Below, in pieces: positions 29,169 through 42,897 of a stretch of DNA of 43,097 bases. The stretch comes from Campylobacteraceae bacterium (lineage in GTDB: Bacteria > Campylobacterota > Campylobacteria > Campylobacterales > Campylobacteraceae). The notes beneath the pieces were generated by a model. It made no database searches. It saw only the letters and a program-made list of their open reading frames with translations, and was not told where the DNA came from. The DNA is taken from the NCBI GenBank assembly GCA_031274495.1, contig JAISQB010000025.1, positions 1 through 43,097 on the forward strand, in the 5' to 3' direction. Made by a program: the position numbers and the translations under genes. The first letter of the stretch is position 1, and every line of letters starts with the position of its first letter.

Positions 29169-31415
29169 ATGCTTGGTTTTTCAACAAATGCTTTAAGGAC
29201 AAATCTGTCCGAATATTCAACGGCGGCAGCATCTAAAGATACGGTTAGCCCGTCAGCGGCGATTGGCTCGATATTGTGCAAGCTCTTATCCAAAATTGTT
29301 CCTCTTGTTTTCATTTCATTGCTTTTTGTCGGCTGTGGACCATATACGGTTACATTTCTTGATGATAGCGACAATGCGATAGCCACTATGAGTTCAAGCA
29401 TGAACAGTACCATAACGGTTCCTACGGCTCCAGATAAAGCGGGTTACACATTTACCGGCTGGAAAGAGGTCAACGGGACAGCAGTAATCCCCATAGGCGT
29501 AACCTCATATCTTATATCAAAAACCATATTTTTCAAGGCGCAATATATATCAGATGCCGATATGGTCCATACGGCGATATTTTTAGATGACGATAACAAC
29601 AAGATAGCGATACTAAAAGCAGCGCAAAGCTCGCATATAACTACCCCCACAGCCCCACCGACTAAAGCGCAACACACCTTCAAAGGTTGGCAAGAGGTGG
29701 GCAAAAGCGGCACTATCGCGGCAGGCGCCTCTTATACGCTGACAAAAAATGCCTTTTTTAAGGCAAAGTATGAGTTAGACACGGGGCGTTACAAAGTCTC
29801 ATTTTACGATGCCGCTCTTAAGCTTTTAAGTTCTGATATCATTACCGTCGGCAGCGGCATAAACCTCAATACAAAAGCCTCCGCTCTTGGCGTGGCAAAT
29901 TGGTACAAGGCAAAAGAGACATCCCCAACAGTCGGCACTTTCACACCTGATAGCAGTATCAACTTTTACGCCGCCGCTAATGTTATAGAGATAAGCGACC
30001 AAGCGGGATTAAGCGATATCAGAAATAATTTATCGGGTAAATATATCCTCATAAATGATATAGTTTTAGAGAGCAGCGGCGCGGGATTTGACGCGAATGG
30101 TTGGCGACCTATCGGTCATCACGCTGCCCATATCTATGATAACCCATCCACCCCTTTTGAAGGTATTTTCAATGGCAACGGATACGCTATTAGTAATTTG
30201 CAGATAGATAGACCATCTACCAATTATATCGGCATTTTTGGATACGCTAAGGGCGCTGCCATAACAAATTTGGGTATTCTAAGCAGTGAGATAAAGGGGA
30301 ATCAGCATGTCGGCAGTATCGCGGGAATGTTCGAGAGTTCAACGATAGCCAATAGCTACTCTGCGGGAAGCGTTAACGCAGATGGAATGAATGTAGGTGG
30401 TATTGTGGGATATACCGATAAATCAACGATAACCGACATTTACTTCATAGGAGGCGTTAAAGGATTTAGCGGCATCGGCGGTGTCACGGGATATGCCGGC
30501 AGTTCAGCAATAACCAATAGCTACTCCACAGGAAGCATTAGCGGGACTTTCAATATCGGCGGCATCATCGGAGATATCAGTGGTTCAACGGTAACCAATA
30601 GCTACTCCCAAGCAAGCGTTAGCGGGGATGACAATATCGGCGGTATCGCGGGGTGGATTTATGTCGGCAATATAGCCGGCAGTTACTCTGCGGGGAGTGT
30701 TAGCGGAGTTGACAGAGTCGGCGGTATCGCGGGAGACGCCGCTAATATCAATATAACCAACAGCTACTCTACGGGAAATATTATCGGAACCAATTATATC
30801 GGCGGTATCGCTGGAGAGAGCAGTAACTCAAAGATAGACAACAGTTACTCCGAGGCAAGCGTCAGTGGAGTTGACAGTATCGGCGGTATCGCTGGACTTG
30901 TTCATAGCTCGACGATAAGCAACAGCTACTTTACGGGAAGCACTAACGGAGATAAACATATCGGTGGTATCGCGGGATATATTAACCTCCACGCAGTGAT
31001 AACCAATAACTATGCTACCGGAAATGTCAAAGGAAGCAGCGATGTCGGCGGTATAGTTGGAGCTATCGGGGAGTCGTATGAAGAAAGTCTGATTCCTAAA
31101 ATTGACTCCACCATAACCAATAACGCCGCCATCAATCAAGCAGTTCAAGGCACATTCAATGTCAATCGCGTACTTGGGTATCTGCTTTCGGATAACGGAG
31201 AGGTTAAAAACAATTTTGCAAGAGCCATAGGGGGAAGATTCAGCGATCCCAATAAAGTTGTGAACGCAGGCATAGGAAAAGCGGACAGCGATTTTAAAAC
31301 GCAATCAACCTATTCAAATAATCTCGGCTGGAAATTCGGCAACAACGACGCCAACCCTTGGAAGATAAACGCAAGCAAAAACAACGGCTACCCATATCTA
31401 TACTGGCAAGAATAA
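29169..31415 (+). CDS. Repeat-rich surface lipoprotein with InlB-type and GLUG repeats (paralogue 1)
   Basis: The 748 aa protein has residues 1-~40 as a polar extension (TNAL, SKDT), then a hydrophobic segment ending in the lipobox-like LLFVGC (Cys56). Next are two InlB_B/Listeria-Bacteroides-type repeats (~57-120 and ~125-198; AGYTFTGWKEV and QHTFKGWQEV), a third related unit (~200-265), and a unique domain. About ten GLUG repeats of ~27 residues follow (~375-640), of the form GGIAGxxxxSxITNSYSTGSVSG. The C-terminus is NNGYPYLYWQE. Such repeats occur in surface adhesin-like proteins; ligand unknown. It is convergent with paralogue 2 at 31747-33489. Confidence 0.8.
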   Translation: MLGFSTNALRTNLSEYSTAAASKDTVSPSAAIGSILCKLLSKIVPLVFISLLFVGCGPYTVTFLDDSDNAIATMSSSMNSTITVPTAPDKAGYTFTGWKEVNGTAVIPIGVTSYLISKTIFFKAQYISDADMVHTAIFLDDDNNKIAILKAAQSSHITTPTAPPTKAQHTFKGWQEVGKSGTIAAGASYTLTKNAFFKAKYELDTGRYKVSFYDAALKLLSSDIITVGSGINLNTKASALGVANWYKAKETSPTVGTFTPDSSINFYAAANVIEISDQAGLSDIRNNLSGKYILINDIVLESSGAGFDANGWRPIGHHAAHIYDNPSTPFEGIFNGNGYAISNLQIDRPSTNYIGIFGYAKGAAITNLGILSSEIKGNQHVGSIAGMFESSTIANSYSAGSVNADGMNVGGIVGYTDKSTITDIYFIGGVKGFSGIGGVTGYAGSSAITNSYSTGSISGTFNIGGIIGDISGSTVTNSYSQASVSGDDNIGGIAGWIYVGNIAGSYSAGSVSGVDRVGGIAGDAANINITNSYSTGNIIGTNYIGGIAGESSNSKIDNSYSEASVSGVDSIGGIAGLVHSSTISNSYFTGSTNGDKHIGGIAGYINLHAVITNNYATGNVKGSSDVGGIVGAIGESYEESLIPKIDSTITNNAAINQAVQGTFNVNRVLGYLLSDNGEVKNNFARAIGGRFSDPNKVVNAGIGKADSDFKTQSTYSNNLGWKFGNNDANPWKINASKNNGYPYLYWQE

Positions 31416-31746: not shown

Positions 31747-33489
31747 TTACAACGCTTGCCAATATAGATATGGGTAGCCGTTGTTTTTGCTTGAGTCTAT
31801 CTTCCATATGCCTGTAGTAGCATTGAAATACCAACCAAGATTCACATATACCCCTTCCAGCTTAAATTGATTGTCCGGTGTTCCCAGTCCGGCATACGCA
31901 TCATCATCACTGGGGCTTGCCAAGTTACTTCTTGCAAGGTTATTCAATATTGTATTGCTGTAGATATCCTTAATATATCCGACAACACGATTAACATTTT
32001 CGGAACCTGAGATGGAAGGATTAATAGCAACATTATTGGTTATTGAGCTACCATAAGCAAATCCGGTGATGCCACCTACATTTTTTGCCGTCGGACCACC
32101 AATGATTCCCGTAGAGTAGCTATTGACTATTGAGGTACCACTATTACTATACCCCACGATACCGCCTATATGTTCATCCGTTCCGCTAACGCTTCCCGTA
32201 GCGTAACTGTTCGCTATTGAGCCGCCATCGCTCGTACCCACGATACCACCGGCAATGCGATTTGTGTTAACATTTCCGGTGGAATAGCTAATGGCTATTG
32301 AACCTCTGCTATTCTCTCCGGCGATACCACCAACAGCACCTACTCCGTTGACATTTCCTGTAGCGTAGCTGCTGACTATACTACCGTAGTTCCAAACTGC
32401 TCCGGCGATACCACCAATATATTCACCCGTTCCGCTAACGCTTCCCGTAGTGTAACTGTTGATTATGTCGCTATGATACGATATTCCGGCGATACCACCA
32501 ACATAAAAATATCCATCAACATTTCCTTTAGTATAACTATTGGTTATTGAGCCATCGGTAATATATCCGACGATACCGCCGACATGTTTATCTCCTCTAA
32601 TACCGTAGGTATCTATCACGACTCCCAGATTTTTAACCTCACCGCCTTTTATAGTGCCAAATAGCCCAATATAATCAGTAGATGGACTATTAATCCAAAG
32701 TCCCGATATAGTGTGTCCATTGCCATTGAAAACGCCTGTGAAAGGATTGTTCTGATTATAGCCGATAGGAAACCAACCCTCCACGTCAAATCCGACGCCG
32801 GCACCCAATGCTATATCGCTTTGCAATATATATCTGCCCGCCAAAGACGCTGCATTTCTGTTGATGGCAGCCAATTCTGTTTGAGTTTTTACCTCCGTAA
32901 CACCTGCACTTGCATAAAGAGTAATATCCTCGGTGGGCGTAAAAGCTCCGCTTATTGAGGCTGATTGTCCCACCTTGTACCAGTTTGATATGCCGTACTT
33001 GTTGCTAAGGTCTATGCTATTGCCTTTTGAAACACCCTCAACTCCTAAAAACTCAAGATTGGCGTCGTAAAACGAAACCGCATAATCCCCCTCCAGCCTA
33101 TACTGCGCTTGAAAAAAGGTTATGGATTTTGTCGGTCTGTAAGATGTTGCATTTGCCGCTATTGTTGCAGTTCCGTTGACCTCTTTCCATTCCGTAAAAA
33201 TATAGCCTGCTCTAACGGGAGCAGCAGGAACGGTTACAGATGAAAAAACTGTTCCTGCCTCCGCTTGTGATATCAGCCTATTGTCGTAATCAATAAATGC
33301 AACCGTATTCCCGCAACCTGCAAGTAGTACGGCGACAAAGAAAAGGGGGATTATCCTACTGAAAGAAAAAAACTTTCTTTTGAGATAAGCCGATATTGAG
33401 CCTGTCGTATCTTTAGATGTCGACGAAGCCAACGCCGCTTGATGTTTGGACGGATTTACCGTCAACGCATTTGTTAAAAAACCAAACAT
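31747..33489 (-). CDS. Repeat-rich surface lipoprotein with InlB-type and GLUG repeats (paralogue 2)
   Basis: The 580 aa paralogue of the lipoprotein at 29169-31415 shares the N-terminal extension (MFGFLTNALTVN...SKDT), a hydrophobic segment ending LLAGC (Cys59), one InlB-type repeat (AGYIFTEWKEVNGTA), a second related unit (FYDANLEFLG), and about seven GLUG repeats (~300-490; GGIAGAVWNYGSIVSSYATGNVNG and similar). The C-terminus NNGYPYLYWQAL is almost the same. GGAGG lies 6-7 nt upstream of the ATG, which supports the start. It has one InlB module and about three GLUG units fewer than paralogue 1. It follows nifK on the same strand, but a 252-bp gap with a hairpin separates them, so it is probably a separate unit. 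Confidence 0.8.
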   Translation of the reverse strand: MFGFLTNALTVNPSKHQAALASSTSKDTTGSISAYLKRKFFSFSRIIPLFFVAVLLAGCGNTVAFIDYDNRLISQAEAGTVFSSVTVPAAPVRAGYIFTEWKEVNGTATIAANATSYRPTKSITFFQAQYRLEGDYAVSFYDANLEFLGVEGVSKGNSIDLSNKYGISNWYKVGQSASISGAFTPTEDITLYASAGVTEVKTQTELAAINRNAASLAGRYILQSDIALGAGVGFDVEGWFPIGYNQNNPFTGVFNGNGHTISGLWINSPSTDYIGLFGTIKGGEVKNLGVVIDTYGIRGDKHVGGIVGYITDGSITNSYTKGNVDGYFYVGGIAGISYHSDIINSYTTGSVSGTGEYIGGIAGAVWNYGSIVSSYATGNVNGVGAVGGIAGENSRGSIAISYSTGNVNTNRIAGGIVGTSDGGSIANSYATGSVSGTDEHIGGIVGYSNSGTSIVNSYSTGIIGGPTAKNVGGITGFAYGSSITNNVAINPSISGSENVNRVVGYIKDIYSNTILNNLARSNLASPSDDDAYAGLGTPDNQFKLEGVYVNLGWYFNATTGIWKIDSSKNNGYPYLYWQAL

Positions 33490-33741: not shown

Positions 33742-35289
33742 CTACCTCACGCAGTCAAAAAAGTAGTCCGTTCTGGCTATATCTTTTGTCTGTTCGTCAA
33801 GCTCGTCAAGTACGGCGTTGACTATCCAAGTGAGCAGATTTAACGCACCCTCGTATCCGCTGATGGAGTATCTGTGCAGATGGTGGCGGTCGAAGATGGG
33901 AAATCCTATGCGTATGAGCGGTATCTTCGTATCGCGGTAGAGCTCTTTGCCGTAGACATTGCCTATCATAAAATCCACAGGCTCCGTGAACAAAAGGCTT
34001 CTCAAATGCCATAAATCCTTGCTCGACCAGATATTGCACTCATCTTTAAAAGCGCTCTTTTCAAGCAGCGCCTTCATCTCTTTTTCCCAATTTTTTCTTG
34101 GCGAATTGTGACATAAAATATGCGTCGGTATCGCCCCCATCTCTATCAAAAACGACACAACCCCCAGCAAAAAGTCAGGGTCGCCCCAGATGGCAAATTT
34201 CTTCCCGTGCATATATGGATAACTATCCTGCATAGCATCCACAAGCCGTCCGCGCTCAAGAGTCAGGGAGTCGGGCACGCTCTTACCCGTAAGTTCGCTT
34301 AGCTTCATCACAAAGTTATCCGTACCGCCAAGACCTATTGGGTTTAGCGTGATATACTCCTGCCCCCAGTCGTTTTTCACAGTCTTGCCCGTAGATACGG
34401 TGGAGTATTTTTGCAACGATATAGTCGCTTTCGCAGCGTGCGCCGTTTTGGCGATGGCAAGCGGTGTACCGCCCGCATATAGCTTGTATTCGCCCGCAGG
34501 CGTATTCCACTGCTCTTCGTGGTCGCCTATCATATATATCTTATCGCCAAAAAGGGCGGCTATGCGTTTTATCTCTCGTAAACTGCCAAGATATGTCTCA
34601 AATCCCGGGATGATATTGATACGCTCCTCATCGATAGCTCCCCTTTTATCTTCGGGATTTAACTCTTGGAGTATCGCGTTCATCATATTGTCGTAGCCTG
34701 TTATGTGGCTTCCTTGGAATGACGGCGTATGGGCGGCGGGGATGAGGACATTATCCAGCGACCCTTCCGCCTCTTTGCGCGCACCTATGACAAACGCGTT
34801 CAAATCGTCCCCGATGACCTCCGCCATACAAGTGGTAGAGACCGCTATCATCTCAGGCTTATACAGAGCTTCGCAGTTTTTAAGACCCTCTTTCATATTG
34901 GCAAGTCCGCCGAACACCGCCGCGCTCTCACTCATACTATCGCTCACGCAAGGGGTCGGCTCCTTAAAATGCCTTGTAAAATAGCTCCTAAAGTAAGCCA
35001 CACATCCGTGACTTCCGTGCACATAAGGCATAGTCTTTTCAAACCCCAAAGCCGCCATCACAGCTCCCAACGGCTGGCACGCTTTGGCGGGATTGACCGT
35101 GATATTTTCGCGGGCTAAATTTTTCTCTCTATACTCCCAGCTCTTAGTCCACTCGGCGATTTCGTTCACCTTTTCAGGATTTACCGCGCCCGCACTTCCC
35201 TCAAACTGCTTTTTATTTTTCAAGACCTCTTGGTATTCGGGCTTTAAAAAGAGCTTTTGCCCGTCGACTATCTTTGTTACATCTTGCAT
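33742..35289 (-). CDS. nifK: Nitrogenase molybdenum-iron protein beta chain
   Basis: The 515 aa beta subunit of the MoFe protein (dinitrogenase), with NifD, forms the alpha2beta2 enzyme that reduces N2. P-cluster ligands are visible: Cys71 (NPAKACQPLGA), Cys96 (GSHGCVAYFR) and Cys154 (STTCMAEVIGDD), plus Ser194 in FQGSHITGYDNM. Length is typical of Mo-NifK and too long for VnfK/AnfK. A strong GAGGAGG within the nifD tail serves as RBS. The start is 2 bp after the nifD stop, so the pair is translationally coupled. Confidence 0.97.
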   Translation of the reverse strand: MQDVTKIVDGQKLFLKPEYQEVLKNKKQFEGSAGAVNPEKVNEIAEWTKSWEYREKNLARENITVNPAKACQPLGAVMAALGFEKTMPYVHGSHGCVAYFRSYFTRHFKEPTPCVSDSMSESAAVFGGLANMKEGLKNCEALYKPEMIAVSTTCMAEVIGDDLNAFVIGARKEAEGSLDNVLIPAAHTPSFQGSHITGYDNMMNAILQELNPEDKRGAIDEERINIIPGFETYLGSLREIKRIAALFGDKIYMIGDHEEQWNTPAGEYKLYAGGTPLAIAKTAHAAKATISLQKYSTVSTGKTVKNDWGQEYITLNPIGLGGTDNFVMKLSELTGKSVPDSLTLERGRLVDAMQDSYPYMHGKKFAIWGDPDFLLGVVSFLIEMGAIPTHILCHNSPRKNWEKEMKALLEKSAFKDECNIWSSKDLWHLRSLLFTEPVDFMIGNVYGKELYRDTKIPLIRIGFPIFDRHHLHRYSISGYEGALNLLTWIVNAVLDELDEQTKDIARTDYFFDCVR

Positions 35290-35290
35290 A

Positions 35291-36757
35291 TCACGCCTCC
35301 TCTTCTTTTTTCTCCCACGGAGCTTTTGTATGTCCCCAGACGGGCGAATTTAGCGCCAAATCCATATCCCTCGCAAAAACGGCAAACGCGTCATACCCGT
35401 GATAAGGACCGCTGTAATCCCACGAGTGCATCTGCCTAAAAGGTAACCCCATCTTTTGGAAGACATATTTCTCTTTGACGCCGCTTGCTACGAGGTCGGG
35501 TTTTAATCTCTTGACAAACTGCTCCAACTCATACTCATTCGTATCGTCATATATCAAAGTAGCGTTGGATAGCTCCTCTTTTGTCCTTTTGTAGTCGTCG
35601 CCGTGACCAAATTCATACCCCGTGCCGATTACCTGCATGCCTAAGTCTTCATACGCGCCGATAACGTGTCTTGGGCGAAGTCCGCCGACATATAGCATCA
35701 CCTTTTTGCCCTCTAATTTTGGTCTGTATTTGGCGATGACCTCATCTGTCATTTTTGTATATTTGGCTATGACCTCTTCGGCTTTTTGCTGTATGCTCTC
35801 GTCAAACACAGCAGCTATCTTTCTAAGGCTCTCCGTCGTCTTCGTGGGTCCGAAAAAGTTATACTCCATCCACGGCGTGCCAAACTCTTGCTCCATATGT
35901 CGCACGATGTAGTTCATACTTCTGTAACAGTGCAAAAGATTTATCTTAGCCTTGGGGCAGATAGCCAATTCCTTATATGTAGCGTCCCCGCTCCACTGCG
36001 CTATGACACGAAGCCCCATCTCTTCGAGTAAAAGCCTTGAAGCCCACGCGTCGCCGCCGATATTATAATCTCCTATTATTGCAACATCATATGGAGTCGA
36101 TTCAAAATCCTTCTTATAGGAGTTATCCGACAACACCTCATCCCGCAGCATATCGTTTGCTATATGGTGACCCAAACTTTGAGAGACCCCTCTAAATCCC
36201 TCGCACGAGACCGCTATGACAGGCTTGCCGCTCTCTTTTTTGTAGATTCTGGCGACCGCGTGTATATCGTCTCCGATAAGTCCTATGGGGCATTCGCTCT
36301 GTACGGATATACCGTTGTTGAGTGGAAAAAGTTCATCTATCTCCAAAAGCGCGGCTTTGAGCTTTTTATCACCGCCGAAGACGATATCTTTCTCATTATA
36401 ATCGGTCGTAAAATTCACCGTCACAAATGTATCCACCCCCGTCGTACCCACATAGTAATTCCTACGCCCCGCACGGCTATACTGCCCGCAGCCCACAGGT
36501 CCGTGCGAGATATGCACCATATCCTTAACAGGTCCCCAGACAACGCCCTTACTTCCGGCATACGCGCAACCGCGCTGGCTCATAACGCCCGGCACCGTCT
36601 GCTTATTACTCTTGACGCTGTCGCACGCACCCTTAACGCCTTCGGGCAAATCAACGCCAAGATGTTTCGCCCTATCCTTTTGCGCCTTGTCGGGATACGC
36701 TTTGAGCACCTCTTCTATCGCGCTCTTTTGCAGCTCTTCTAACACTTCTGCTGTCAT
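35291..36757 (-). CDS. nifD: Nitrogenase molybdenum-iron protein alpha chain
   Basis: The 488 aa alpha subunit of dinitrogenase holds the FeMo-cofactor. P-cluster cysteines are Cys64 ([11 protein letters not shown]), Cys90 (GPVGCGQYS) and Cys156 ([11 protein letters not shown]). FeMo-co ligands are Cys277 ([10 protein letters not shown]) and His444 ([14 protein letters not shown]). The catalytic Gln193 and His197 are in [12 protein letters not shown]. All ligands of a functional Mo-nitrogenase are therefore intact. AAGGA precedes the ATG. A 63-bp gap separates it from the unknown 120-residue gene upstream. Confidence 0.98.
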
Positions 36758-36820: not shown

Positions 36821-37183
36821 TTACGACACTTTAATCCTGTATAGATTCATATCGTCAAGTTTCCTGCAAATCTCCGCCGTCTTCGCGCCGTCAACGGCTT
36901 TGCTTACCTCGCTTATCTGGTATTTGTTCGTGTAAAATACCATCTTATACTCGCCCTCGATATCAGACTTCGTATAATAATCCACAAAAGCGGTGAACAA
37001 AAAAGTCCCCTTATCATCCGCGCTAAACCGCTCTATCTCCTTGCCCTCTCTCGTCTCGCTCACAAACTCTATCTTGCTGTAAGTGGATATATCGCCCGCA
37101 CCTGCGGTAACTTTCTCTACGACCTTATCAAATCCTATCTTATTTCCCTCGCTCGCGGGGAAGTGGTATCCGCAAATAAACAT
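36821..37183 (-). CDS. Unknown protein encoded between nifH and nifD
   Basis: The 120 aa soluble protein starts MFICGYHFPASEGNK and has no signal peptide or membrane segment. It is mixed alpha/beta, with strands near 42-90 (IEFVSE, GTFLFTAFVDYYT, YKMVFYTNKYQ) and a C-terminal helix ending LDDMNLYRIKVS. Two cysteines (4 and ~106) are isolated, so no cluster site is evident. GAAAGGAG sits 7 nt upstream of the ATG. It lies 14 bp after nifH on the same strand and must be co-transcribed. It lacks the PII signature, so it is not NifI, which occupies this slot in methanogens. No family is recognised. Confidence 0.85.
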   Translation of the reverse strand: MFICGYHFPASEGNKIGFDKVVEKVTAGAGDISTYSKIEFVSETREGKEIERFSADDKGTFLFTAFVDYYTKSDIEGEYKMVFYTNKYQISEVSKAVDGAKTAEICRKLDDMNLYRIKVS

Positions 37184-37197
37184 TTTTTTCTCCTTTC

Positions 37198-38675
<1,478 letters not shown>

Positions 38676-40625
38676 CTAACTCACTGTTAACTCTTGTATC
38701 TTTTCGACGATACTTGGATCCTCAAGCGTTGAGATGTCCTGCGTTATCTCTTCGTTTTTGGCGATGGAGCGTAGGATTCTTCTTACTATCTTGCCGCTTC
38801 TGGTTTTTGGAAGGGCGGGCACAAATCTTATGGCGTCGAGTTTGGCTATGGAGCCTATCTCTTTTACTATAAGTTTGTTGAGCTCTTGTATCATATTTAT
38901 CTCTTCGCCTATGCCGCCTTCGTTTTTGATGACGATGTAGGCAAAGATACCCTCGCCTTTGATGGGGTCGGGTCTGCCGACGACGGCGACTTCGGCGACA
39001 TTTTCGTGGTGGGCTAAGATAGCTTCTATCTCTGCCGTGCCAAGTCTATGTCCTGATACATTGATGACATCGTCCGTGCGTCCCGTTATCGTGATGTAGC
39101 CTTGCTCATCCACGATAGCGCCGTCCCCTGAAAAATATACGGGCTTGCCGTCCTTCTTCACATCGCCGAAATATGCCTTCTTGAACCGCTTCGGGTCGCC
39201 CCATATCGTCCTTATCATAGACGGCCACGGTTTTGTGATGCATAAAAGTCCTTTTTCGCCTACGGGGACTTGATTGCCGTCGTTGTCCAAAACTTCGGCT
39301 TTGATACCCGGAAGCGCAAATGTAGCAGAGCCCGGCTTCGTCGGAGTAGCGCCCGGAAGCGGCGTTATCATATGTCCGCCCGTTTCTGTCTGCCACCAAG
39401 TATCGACTATGGCGCATCTGCCGTTGCCGACCGCCTCTCTGTACCAGTGCCAAGCGTCGGGGTTTATCGGCTCGCCGACCGTTCCAAGGACTTTTAAGCT
39501 GCTTAGATCGTGCTTTTGAGGCTCATCGGGACCCTCTTTGTGCAGCATTCTGATAGCTGTCGGGGCGGTGTAAAATTGATTGACCCTATGTTCTTCTATC
39601 ATCTTCCACCATCTTCCCACATCAGGATAGGTCGCGACGCCTTCGTATATTATAGTAGTAGCGCCCATCGCGAGCGGTCCGTAGACTATATATGTATGTC
39701 CCGTTATCCAGCCCACATCCGCCGTACACCAGAATGTATCATTCTCTTTCACATCAAATACGTGCTCCATCGTGTACTGCGCCCAGAGGATATATCCCGC
39801 CCCTGAGTGCTGAACCCCTTTTGGTTTACCCGTACTGCCTGATGTGTACAACAAAAATAGCGGATCTTCGCTGTCCATAGGCTCGGGATCGCAGTGCTGG
39901 GACTCTTGCATAATGATCTCATTATATATAAAGTCCCTGCCTCTTACATAATTTATCGGCTCTCTGTTTCTCTGGACTATTAAGACTTTTTTGCAGCTTT
40001 CGCATCCGACACTCAAAGCCTCGTCCACGACCGGTTTTAACATATACGGTTTGCCCCGTCTAAAGGCGCCGTCCGCGGTGATGACAAGTTTTGCTTGGGC
40101 ATCTTCTATCCTATCTCTTAGCGCTTCAGCGGAAAATCCGCCAAAAACTACAGAGTGGATAGCGCCTATCTTAGCGCACGCCAACATCGCAAAAACAGCC
40201 TCGGGAATCATCGGAAGATATAAAACCACGCGGTCACCCTTTTTGACACCAAATCTATTTTTTAATAAATTTGCCATACGGTTCACGCGGTAATATAGCT
40301 GGAGATAGGTGATAATCCTCTTATCTCCAAACTCGCTCTCCCAGATAATCGCGGCTTTATTTTTTCGTACTTTTAAGTGGCGTCCCAAACATTGATGGGT
40401 AACATTTAATTTGCCGCCCAAAAACCATTTATAAAACGGCGCTTCGCTCTCGTCCAAAACGGTATGAAACGGCTCAATCCAATCTATCTTTTCACGCGCC
40501 ATCTTTTCCCAATAGCCCGTGTAGTCCTCTTCTGCCTGCAAACATAACTCTTTATATTCGCACATATTCTTGATACGCGCCTCTTTACTGAAGGCGCGAT
40601 TTGGTTCATAAATTATAGATGACAT
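38676..40625 (-). CDS. acs: Acetyl-CoA synthetase
   Basis: The 649 aa AMP-forming enzyme activates acetate to acetyl-CoA via acetyl-AMP. It has [17 protein letters not shown] (ATP-binding P-loop), [11 protein letters not shown] (adenylate core), SGDGA and [20 protein letters not shown] (hinge). The C-terminal [17 protein letters not shown] carries the catalytic lysine that is the acetylation-control site in other bacteria. Full family length. AAGGAG precedes the ATG and TATAAT lies upstream, so it has its own promoter although it sits amid nif-related genes. Confidence 0.97.
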
Positions 40626-40988: not shown

Positions 40989-42212
40989 TTATCGGTTCAC
41001 TTTGTATGCTCTTTTGCGCTCTCTTGAGCTACCGATACCAATACGGCTTCTATATTTTGTGATGGTTCGTTTTGAGACGCTGACGCCGAATTTTTGTTGT
41101 ACGAGCACTAAAAGGTCGTCGTCTTTCAGCGGGTTTTCTTTGTCTTCATATTGTATGCGCTCGCTTAAAAAGTTTTTGATTTGCGAGGAGGAGATATTTT
41201 TTGATGAGATTGCGCTTGAGAAGAAAAACTTCAAAGGATAAATTCCCCTTTTTGTCTCTATATATTTATTGGCAACGGCTCTTGATATGGTGGATTCGGA
41301 TAGGGAGAGTTCGGATGCCAGTTCGACCATTCCAAGGGGTTTTAACTCTCCGCCTACAAAAAAGTTTATCTGCTTTTCCACTATCAAAAGGACTATTTTG
41401 TAAAGCGTGCTTTTTCTAAGTTCAAGCAAACTGACTATTTCGCGCGCCTCCTTTAACTTATCTTTAATATTCTTCTGCTCGCTTAAAAAGCTGCCTTGCA
41501 CTATGATATCGGGATAATAGTCGCTATTTATGCGCACCTTTATATCATCCCCCACATCTATAAAAAAGTCGGGTATTATCTGTTGCGAAAAGGCTTTATA
41601 CTCGATGGCGGGGATATTGGAGAAGTTTTTTATGGTGTTCATAGCCTCATGAAAACGCTCGTGTTCCGCGAAACGGTCTATCTTTGACATATTTTTTATC
41701 ATCTCAAGACACAAGGCGTATAATTCATCGTCAATCTCATCCAACTCGTCAAGCTGAAATATAAAAGCCTCTTTTTGGTCTACCGCTCCTATCCCTTTTG
41801 GCTCCAGCTTTGAAAATCGTTTTCTGATACTCTCCACAAACGCCGTGCTTGTGTGACACAAAGAGGCGATGCGCTTTATATTTCCGTCAAAATATCCGTC
41901 TTCGTTGATATCGCAGAGTATCTCGTAAGCTATTTTTTGCGATAGTCCGGTAGGGAAAAGCGGAGGGATTAACTGCGCTAAAACATCCTCGTGAAACGAT
42001 TCGGAGTTTAATGCGAACTCTTCCACAAACTCACCGCTTTTAGGTATATTTCGCTCTTGCGGGTATCTTATCTCCAAAAACGGATTTTCGCGTGAGATGA
42101 GTTGCAAATGTTCATTTAACTCGTCCAAAGACGACAGTAGCAGGGGCTGCCATAATTTAAAAGATAAGTTAAGAGTGGGTTTGGTTTGTAACCTTAAGCT
42201 TGTCGTTTTCAT
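40989..42212 (-). CDS. rpoN: RNA polymerase sigma-54 factor
   Basis: The 407 aa sigma factor has an N-terminal activator-interacting region (LRLQTKPTLNLSFKLWQPLLLSSLDELNEHL, residues ~6-36), an acidic and core-binding middle, a helix-turn-helix region (GMVELASELSLSESTISRAVANKY), and the diagnostic RpoN box SKRTITKYRSRIGI near the C-terminus. It directs transcription from -24/-12 promoters, such as the one upstream of nifH. In Campylobacterota sigma-54 also drives flagellar genes. A hairpin lies immediately before the ATG and no Shine-Dalgarno is visible. Confidence 0.95.
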   Translation of the reverse strand: MKTTSLRLQTKPTLNLSFKLWQPLLLSSLDELNEHLQLISRENPFLEIRYPQERNIPKSGEFVEEFALNSESFHEDVLAQLIPPLFPTGLSQKIAYEILCDINEDGYFDGNIKRIASLCHTSTAFVESIRKRFSKLEPKGIGAVDQKEAFIFQLDELDEIDDELYALCLEMIKNMSKIDRFAEHERFHEAMNTIKNFSNIPAIEYKAFSQQIIPDFFIDVGDDIKVRINSDYYPDIIVQGSFLSEQKNIKDKLKEAREIVSLLELRKSTLYKIVLLIVEKQINFFVGGELKPLGMVELASELSLSESTISRAVANKYIETKRGIYPLKFFFSSAISSKNISSSQIKNFLSERIQYEDKENPLKDDDLLVLVQQKFGVSVSKRTITKYRSRIGIGSSRERKRAYKVNR

Positions 42213-42265: not shown

Positions 42266-42562
42266 TTAATATTTTATGCGGACTACACCGTTTGGTCTCT
42301 CTATCTTCATTTGACAGGAGAGCCTCAAATTTTGCGTATTGAGCCCCGCGCAAACCTCTTTGATGACCTTTATCTCTTTGGCGTTTATCTCCGATAAGAA
42401 CTCCATCCCCTGCACTATCTCCACCACGCAGGTCCCGCATTCGCCGTTACGGCAGCCAAAAGGCAGCGCGCTTCCCGCGGCTTCGACCACATCTTGTATC
42501 GTAGTGCCGGGCTTTACATTGATAGCCAGAAAATCGTTTATAATCTCCACTCTCGTCATCAT
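42266..42562 (-). CDS. 2Fe-2S ferredoxin (plant/adrenodoxin-like fold)
   Basis: The 98 aa small electron carrier has cluster motif CRNGECGTC (Cys37, 42, 45) plus Cys83 (RLSCQMK), the pattern of plant-type 2Fe-2S ferredoxins. Cys71 is extra. It may supply electrons to nitrogenase or its cofactor assembly. The start is tandem ATGs at 42562/42559; the first overlaps the stop of the preceding gene as ATGA, with AAAGGA upstream. It is embedded in a nif-linked unit; partner identity is inferred. Confidence 0.88.
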   Translation of the reverse strand: MMTRVEIINDFLAINVKPGTTIQDVVEAAGSALPFGCRNGECGTCVVEIVQGMEFLSEINAKEIKVIKEVCAGLNTQNLRLSCQMKIERPNGVVRIKY

Positions 42563-42897
42563 TTTGTATCCTTTGATTTTTTATAAGGTTTGACAAGCAC
42601 ATCGCCTTTTACCAGCATCATCGACGCGACGCGTACTTTGGGGCTTATGGTGTACTGCTGGGAGATTTGCGCCTCTTTGTCGCTGATAGCGCCGAACTTT
42701 TGCAATATCTCCAACTCCTCATCCTCCGTGTATGTCGTAGGCTCGTCAAATATATGCTCGATACTGAGCAATCCGCCCTCCGCACCACTTATATCTATGC
42801 CCTTTTCCTGTGCCAAACGGATGATCGGCTCGCCGATCTTGGCGTCATAGATACCGTCCTTTTCTTCATCAAAATGCATAAAGATAACTTTTGCCAT
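42559..42897 (-). CDS. Cysteine-free ferredoxin-fold protein (pseudo-ferredoxin)
   Basis: The 112 aa protein follows Isc-type (adrenodoxin-like) 2Fe-2S ferredoxins along its length: GIYDAKIGEPIIRLAQEKGIDISGAEGGLLSIEHIF parallels the strand, helix and cluster loop, and VRVASMMLVKGDVLVKPY parallels the last strands. All four cluster cysteines are replaced; AEGG stands where ACGG is expected and the protein has no cysteine at all. It therefore cannot bind a conventional cluster. It overlaps the real ferredoxin gene by 4 nt, so a partner or chaperone role is likely. RBS TAGGAG is clear. Fold assignment is by eye. Confidence 0.7.
   Translation of the reverse strand: MAKVIFMHFDEEKDGIYDAKIGEPIIRLAQEKGIDISGAEGGLLSIEHIFDEPTTYTEDEELEILQKFGAISDKEAQISQQYTISPKVRVASMMLVKGDVLVKPYKKSKDTK

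Follow-up and report, generated by a model that had tools for sequence, protein, structure and literature searches.

A gene between nifH and nifD in Campylobacterota encoding a probable dedicated nitrogenase partner

The conventional picture of Mo-nitrogenase comprises NifH, NifDK and a common set of helper proteins. The small G subunits of the Fe- and V-nitrogenases, AnfG and VnfG, are encoded between the D and K genes and not between H and D. AnfG was shown to contact AnfH and to stabilise the alpha-III domain and the cofactor (PMC10803253), and CowN protects the MoFe protein, to which it binds weakly (PMC8047169). Further, binding of NifI to dinitrogenase is documented in methanogens (cited in PMC8809328). 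In the window, i.e. the whole stretch of 43,097 nt of Campylobacteraceae DNA analysed here, a gene which we call X is located between nifH and nifD. Curated family libraries do not contain the X family, which very probably represents a new kind of lineage-specific accessory protein for nitrogenase.

The nifH-X-nifD locus

The features of the locus are listed in Table 1. The identity of nifH, nifD and nifK relies on NCBIfam equivalog models. The true start of nifH is the ATG at 38109, which has AAGGAG upstream, rather than the TTG at 38190 in the mechanical ORF list. The distance from the end of X to nifD is 63 bp, and the bases directly 5' of the X start read GAAAGGAGAAAAAA-ATG. An earlier note on this DNA, which did not give the strand of X, had claimed a tight spacing to nifH and a strong ribosome-binding site. 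Indeed, the two genes are only 14 bp apart, and an AGGAG-type site is kept before 70 of 80 homologues, the remainder having a weaker core. The note also held that X must share the nifHDK transcript. Since no terminator-like sites were found on the minus strand between 36600 and 38700, X is likely to be co-transcribed with nifHDK.

Table 1. Coordinates of X and of other features in the window
Feature	Position	Strand	Description
GLUG-motif gene	29169-31415	plus	lipoprotein-like
GLUG-motif gene	31747-33489	minus	lipoprotein-like
nifK	33742-35289	minus	TIGR01286, 764 bits, over cut-off
nifD	35291-36757	minus	TIGR01282, 822.1 bits, over cut-off
X	36821-37183	minus	ATG start 37183, stop at 36821; 120 codons, 120 aa; family undescribed
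nifH-X gap	37184-37197	minus	14 bp; contains X ribosome-binding site AAAGGAG
nifH	37198-38109	minus	stop 37198; TIGR01287, 419.8 bits, over cut-off
region upstream of nifH	38110-38676
rpoN	40989-42212
orphan gene	42559-42897	minus	112 aa

Some other features of the window are of interest in their own right. In the region upstream of nifH no sigma-54 promoter (TGGCAC-N5-TTGC, at most one mismatch) was found, although rpoN is nearby. The gene of the 112-aa protein, which has no Pfam match, is flanked by a NifZ-like gene and the gene of a 2Fe-2S ferredoxin; it is a second orphan nif-linked gene beside X. Downstream of nifK, the two GLUG-motif genes are related, contain List-Bact repeats and are oriented oppositely to each other.

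The X family and its linkage to nitrogenase

Searches with X revealed no match worth naming in Pfam, NCBIfam and PHROGs and no convincing match among PDB sequences. In a Pfam search of 47 homologues no consistent family was found. Matches of single homologues (Mso1_Sec1_bdg with a best E-value of 1.2e-4, and others) were read as chance, since X itself has no match and the families are unrelated. In the accessible part of the open literature on nif genes, Campylobacterota included, we found no mention of the protein. X is a real gene and more than a chance reading frame, because it belongs to a conserved family, its pairwise dN/dS is 0.04-0.13 where estimable (about 0.04 among close relatives), and the AGGAG-type site is kept as described above.

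X is present in 14 of 100 related genomes, always between nifH and nifD wherever the contig extended far enough; a weak match in G021 (E-value 6.8e-4), located within a Sel1-repeat-like frame, is spurious. A wide scan by pattern plus tblastn, covering 84,980 species with one genome each, yielded 108 relatives, of which the best 80 were kept; the 28 weaker matches may include other phyla. The order nifH-X-nifD was found in all of these 80 loci, and all belong to Campylobacterota as judged by record title or nif similarity. The titles name Campylobacteraceae, Sulfurospirillum, Sulfurovum, Sulfurimonas, Sulfuricurvum, Arcobacter and others, and the few loci with uninformative titles have nif genes of the same kind as the Campylobacterota ones. 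No relatives were found in viral contigs and plasmids, and a viral fold library gave nothing at E<=0.001.

At the level of the phylum, 397 Campylobacterota genomes were surveyed with the X profile and the nifD model (scores over the cut-off). X was matched in 73 genomes, nifD also in 73, and both in 72. In the one genome with nifD and without X (G421), the contig stops 89 bp after the nifD match, at the expected place of X. In the genome with X and without a full nifD (G262), X is located beside a frame-broken nifD in a nif cluster with many frame breaks; at this locus (L157) the frames of nifH, nifD and nifK are broken and X is run together with nifH. Similarly, in G008 (L050) the frames of all three genes X, nifH and nifD are broken. 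The two clusters represent decaying operons or poor assembly. In G434 the contig ends inside nifD, and four genomes (G239, G282, G399 and G442) had only weak or partial nitrogenase-like matches and no X. In the genus of the window, X was found in six of six other nif-positive genomes and in none of seven nif-negative ones; within this genus it is gained and lost along with nif.

The earlier note had proposed beforehand that presence of X only in nif-positive genomes, and at this position, would support a dedicated nitrogenase role. The outcome was clearly positive (80/80 loci and 72 genomes with both genes), and homologues were not common in genomes without nifHDK, either among the 397 genomes or in the genus of the window. 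Because X is nearly universal in nif-positive members of the phylum and was not found where nifHD is absent, it is very probably a dedicated nitrogenase partner. To this extent, by genomic distribution, the earlier interpretation is supported. It is very improbable that X is a conserved operon hitchhiker, functionally unrelated to its neighbours: its position and co-occurrence are held across many genera, it is under strong purifying selection, and in G008 and G262 it decays along with nif.

Predicted structure of X

X is confidently predicted by AlphaFold2 to form a single compact alpha/beta domain (pLDDT 91.6, pTM 0.86), and the same arrangement was obtained for a Sulfuricurvum homologue with approximately 40% identity (pLDDT 91.1). 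The invariant residues comprise the N-terminal motif MFxxGxxFPxxxGN and the motif YxNxYQ...SK..D, which opens the third main helix. In addition, Cys106 is near-invariant in the family.

Foldseek comparison of the models to the PDB revealed nothing at E<=0.001. For both models, the best ten PDB matches were all DapD of P. aeruginosa (E-values 0.007-0.05, probability 0.96-1.00, TM 0.43-0.48), in the distal N-terminal subdomain of which helices flank a four-stranded sheet (PMC3281039). X is likewise a sheet-plus-helices domain, but DapD has an enzyme domain and X has none attached. Descent of X from the DapD N-domain was considered but is not supported: the top match is repeatable, but the TM scores are below 0.5, and hhalign of X against 30 Campylobacterota DapD N-domains (THDPS_N) gave a probability of 0.3%. 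Since the DapD N-domain of Campylobacterota has no profile similarity to X, the likeness of the models should be read as a resemblance and not as a family assignment. Thus, a clear match to an unrelated metabolic family, which according to the earlier note would speak against a nitrogenase role, was not found; the DapD fold resemblance is weak and without sequence support. Independently of X, we observed that the frame with the DapD N-terminal domain is unusually short in G068, G086 and G161 (233-242 aa vs about 400).

Possible roles of X and comparison with known proteins

We tentatively suggest that X is a nitrogenase-binding modulator of activity or docking, with the role of NifI. X would be produced from the nifH-X-nifD-nifK message at a level matching that of the enzyme, would bind the Fe protein, the MoFe protein or both, and could modulate their docking or turnover. 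In this way it would take the place in the operon, and probably also the function, of the P-II-type NifI1-NifI2 of other nitrogenase lineages. Binding to NifH or NifDK is favoured because the slot is common with NifI and matched expression is expected from the operon. Mirror-tree analysis showed that X co-diverges with NifH as well as with NifD/K. At first NifH seemed to be favoured by partial correlations, but NifD has the higher raw correlation, and the signal is in part common to NifD and NifK; co-divergence therefore singles out no one nitrogenase partner. A more doubtful idea is that X is an obligatory extra partner of the phylum's Mo-nitrogenase, whose fold has no confident PDB match and which either replaces the NifI switch or is an unprecedented Mo-nitrogenase subunit. 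In our ranking the modulator is favoured over an extra subunit, an assembly factor and a protector, in this order.

As a stoichiometric extra subunit like the G subunit of V-/Fe-nitrogenase, X would sit on NifDK and aid Fe protein docking or cover the cofactor site. It is encoded inside the structural operon, as AnfG and VnfG are, and is never lost with an intact nifD of the usual type; its size is similar to theirs (about 115-120 aa), and AnfG shows that small subunits of such kind exist (PMC10803253). However, AnfG and VnfG are alpha-helical whereas X is predicted to be alpha/beta, no match of X to their families was found in Pfam and NCBIfam, X has no Pfam match in general, and it evolves 3-5 times faster than NifH/D/K, which is fast for a core subunit. 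We consider this role unlikely.

Next in the ranking, and unlikely as well, is a role in maturation or assembly: in the manner of NafY, NifZ, NifW or NifT, X would hold NifH or apo-NifDK at cluster insertion. The universal presence of X among nif-positive genomes is in line with such a task, and so is the median pI of 5.0 of the family, nif assembly proteins being often small and acidic; the place right behind nifH would suit co-translational action. On the other hand, assembly genes are rarely located between nifH and nifD, NifX and NifZ are already encoded in related genomes, and X lacks similarity to NafY, NifZ, NifW and NifT. It has no Pfam match to NifX, NifX-associated or NifZ, and the hhalign probabilities were 0.1-1.2%, while two X clades compared to each other as a positive control gave 100%. 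Pfam and profile comparison thus rule out that X is one of these three.

Many carriers of X live microaerobically, which would fit a role similar to that of CowN or the FeSII protein, namely protection of nitrogenase against inhibitors, e.g. O2 or CO. CowN provides a precedent (PMC8047169): like X it is a small nitrogenase-associated protein, it occurs in many genomes that also have X, and the 30-residue stretch 76-105 of X faintly resembles CowN residues 64-93 near the C-terminus. However, hhalign of X against CowN gave a score of 12.2, and shuffled profiles reached up to 22.9; homology to CowN was rejected, as the look-alike stretch scores inside the shuffled null. The CowN domain PF20543 had no match to X or its homologues. 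CowN is all-helical and its homologues end in ECC/QCC, whereas X ends in NLYRIKVS and thus lacks the Cys-Cys end. A separate gene for true CowN is present in 49 of 75 nif-positive genomes (none was found in the genome of the window), and X is kept in lineages whose oxygen habits differ widely. Altogether, a protector is improbable. Since X is retained with nifD across these lineages and is universal among nif-positive genomes, unlike CowN, its task at the enzyme seems to be constant rather than conditional.

The strict tie of X to nifD and its absence from the curated libraries suggest that Campylobacterota fixers may control, build or equip nitrogenase differently. This concerns Sulfurospirillum, Sulfurimonas, Sulfuricurvum, Arcobacter relatives and termite-gut-like Campylobacteraceae, which are ecologically important nitrogen fixers. 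X is a diagnostic marker for the common Campylobacterota nitrogenase lineage and may matter when nif operons are moved between hosts. It is directly testable, because cultured hosts fixing 15N2 exist (PMC11474244, PMC12029903).

The modulator role, which we favour, has to be weighed against what is known of P-II proteins. X has no P-II sequence or fold similarity and no known effector-binding motif. The P-II domain (PF00543) had no match to X at E<=10 and none was listed for the 47 homologues, hhalign against NifI1 and nif-linked P-II profiles gave nothing, and no P-II structures were among the best 50 Foldseek matches of the models. In line with the earlier remark that X has no PII signature, Pfam and profile comparison rule out its membership in P-II/NifI. 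Also against a modulator, many X-positive genomes encode in addition a divergent P-II protein linked to nif, and this protein, rather than X, could be the ammonium switch-off regulator. In several Campylobacterota this protein (133-152 aa, about 66-73 bits to PF00543; L214:11713-12111, L213:6059-6457, L215:4338-4793) is encoded in or near a nifE-nifN-nifX-flavodoxin-nifZ-ferredoxin-rpoN group. The genome of the window has only two P-II matches, both ordinary and high-scoring. In favour of a modulator, DraT was not found in the 75 genomes, in a search without a positive-control match.

A second nitrogenase type, probably acquired from elsewhere, exists in one Campylobacterota genus (G073, L156:6240-9463; G437, L230). 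Its NifD has 544 aa and scores 645-652 bits, below the cut-off. These two genomes have no X, and two P-II proteins, NifI1 and NifI2, are encoded between nifH and nifD (64-79 bits with PF00543 in G073). In the same family, X is present in seven of seven genomes with the usual nifD. NifI1/NifI2 are encoded by two genes and X by one, and X matches P-II proteins neither in sequence or profile nor in fold; however, both are small soluble proteins encoded in the slot between nifH and nifD, which in Campylobacterota is occupied by one or the other in the cases seen.
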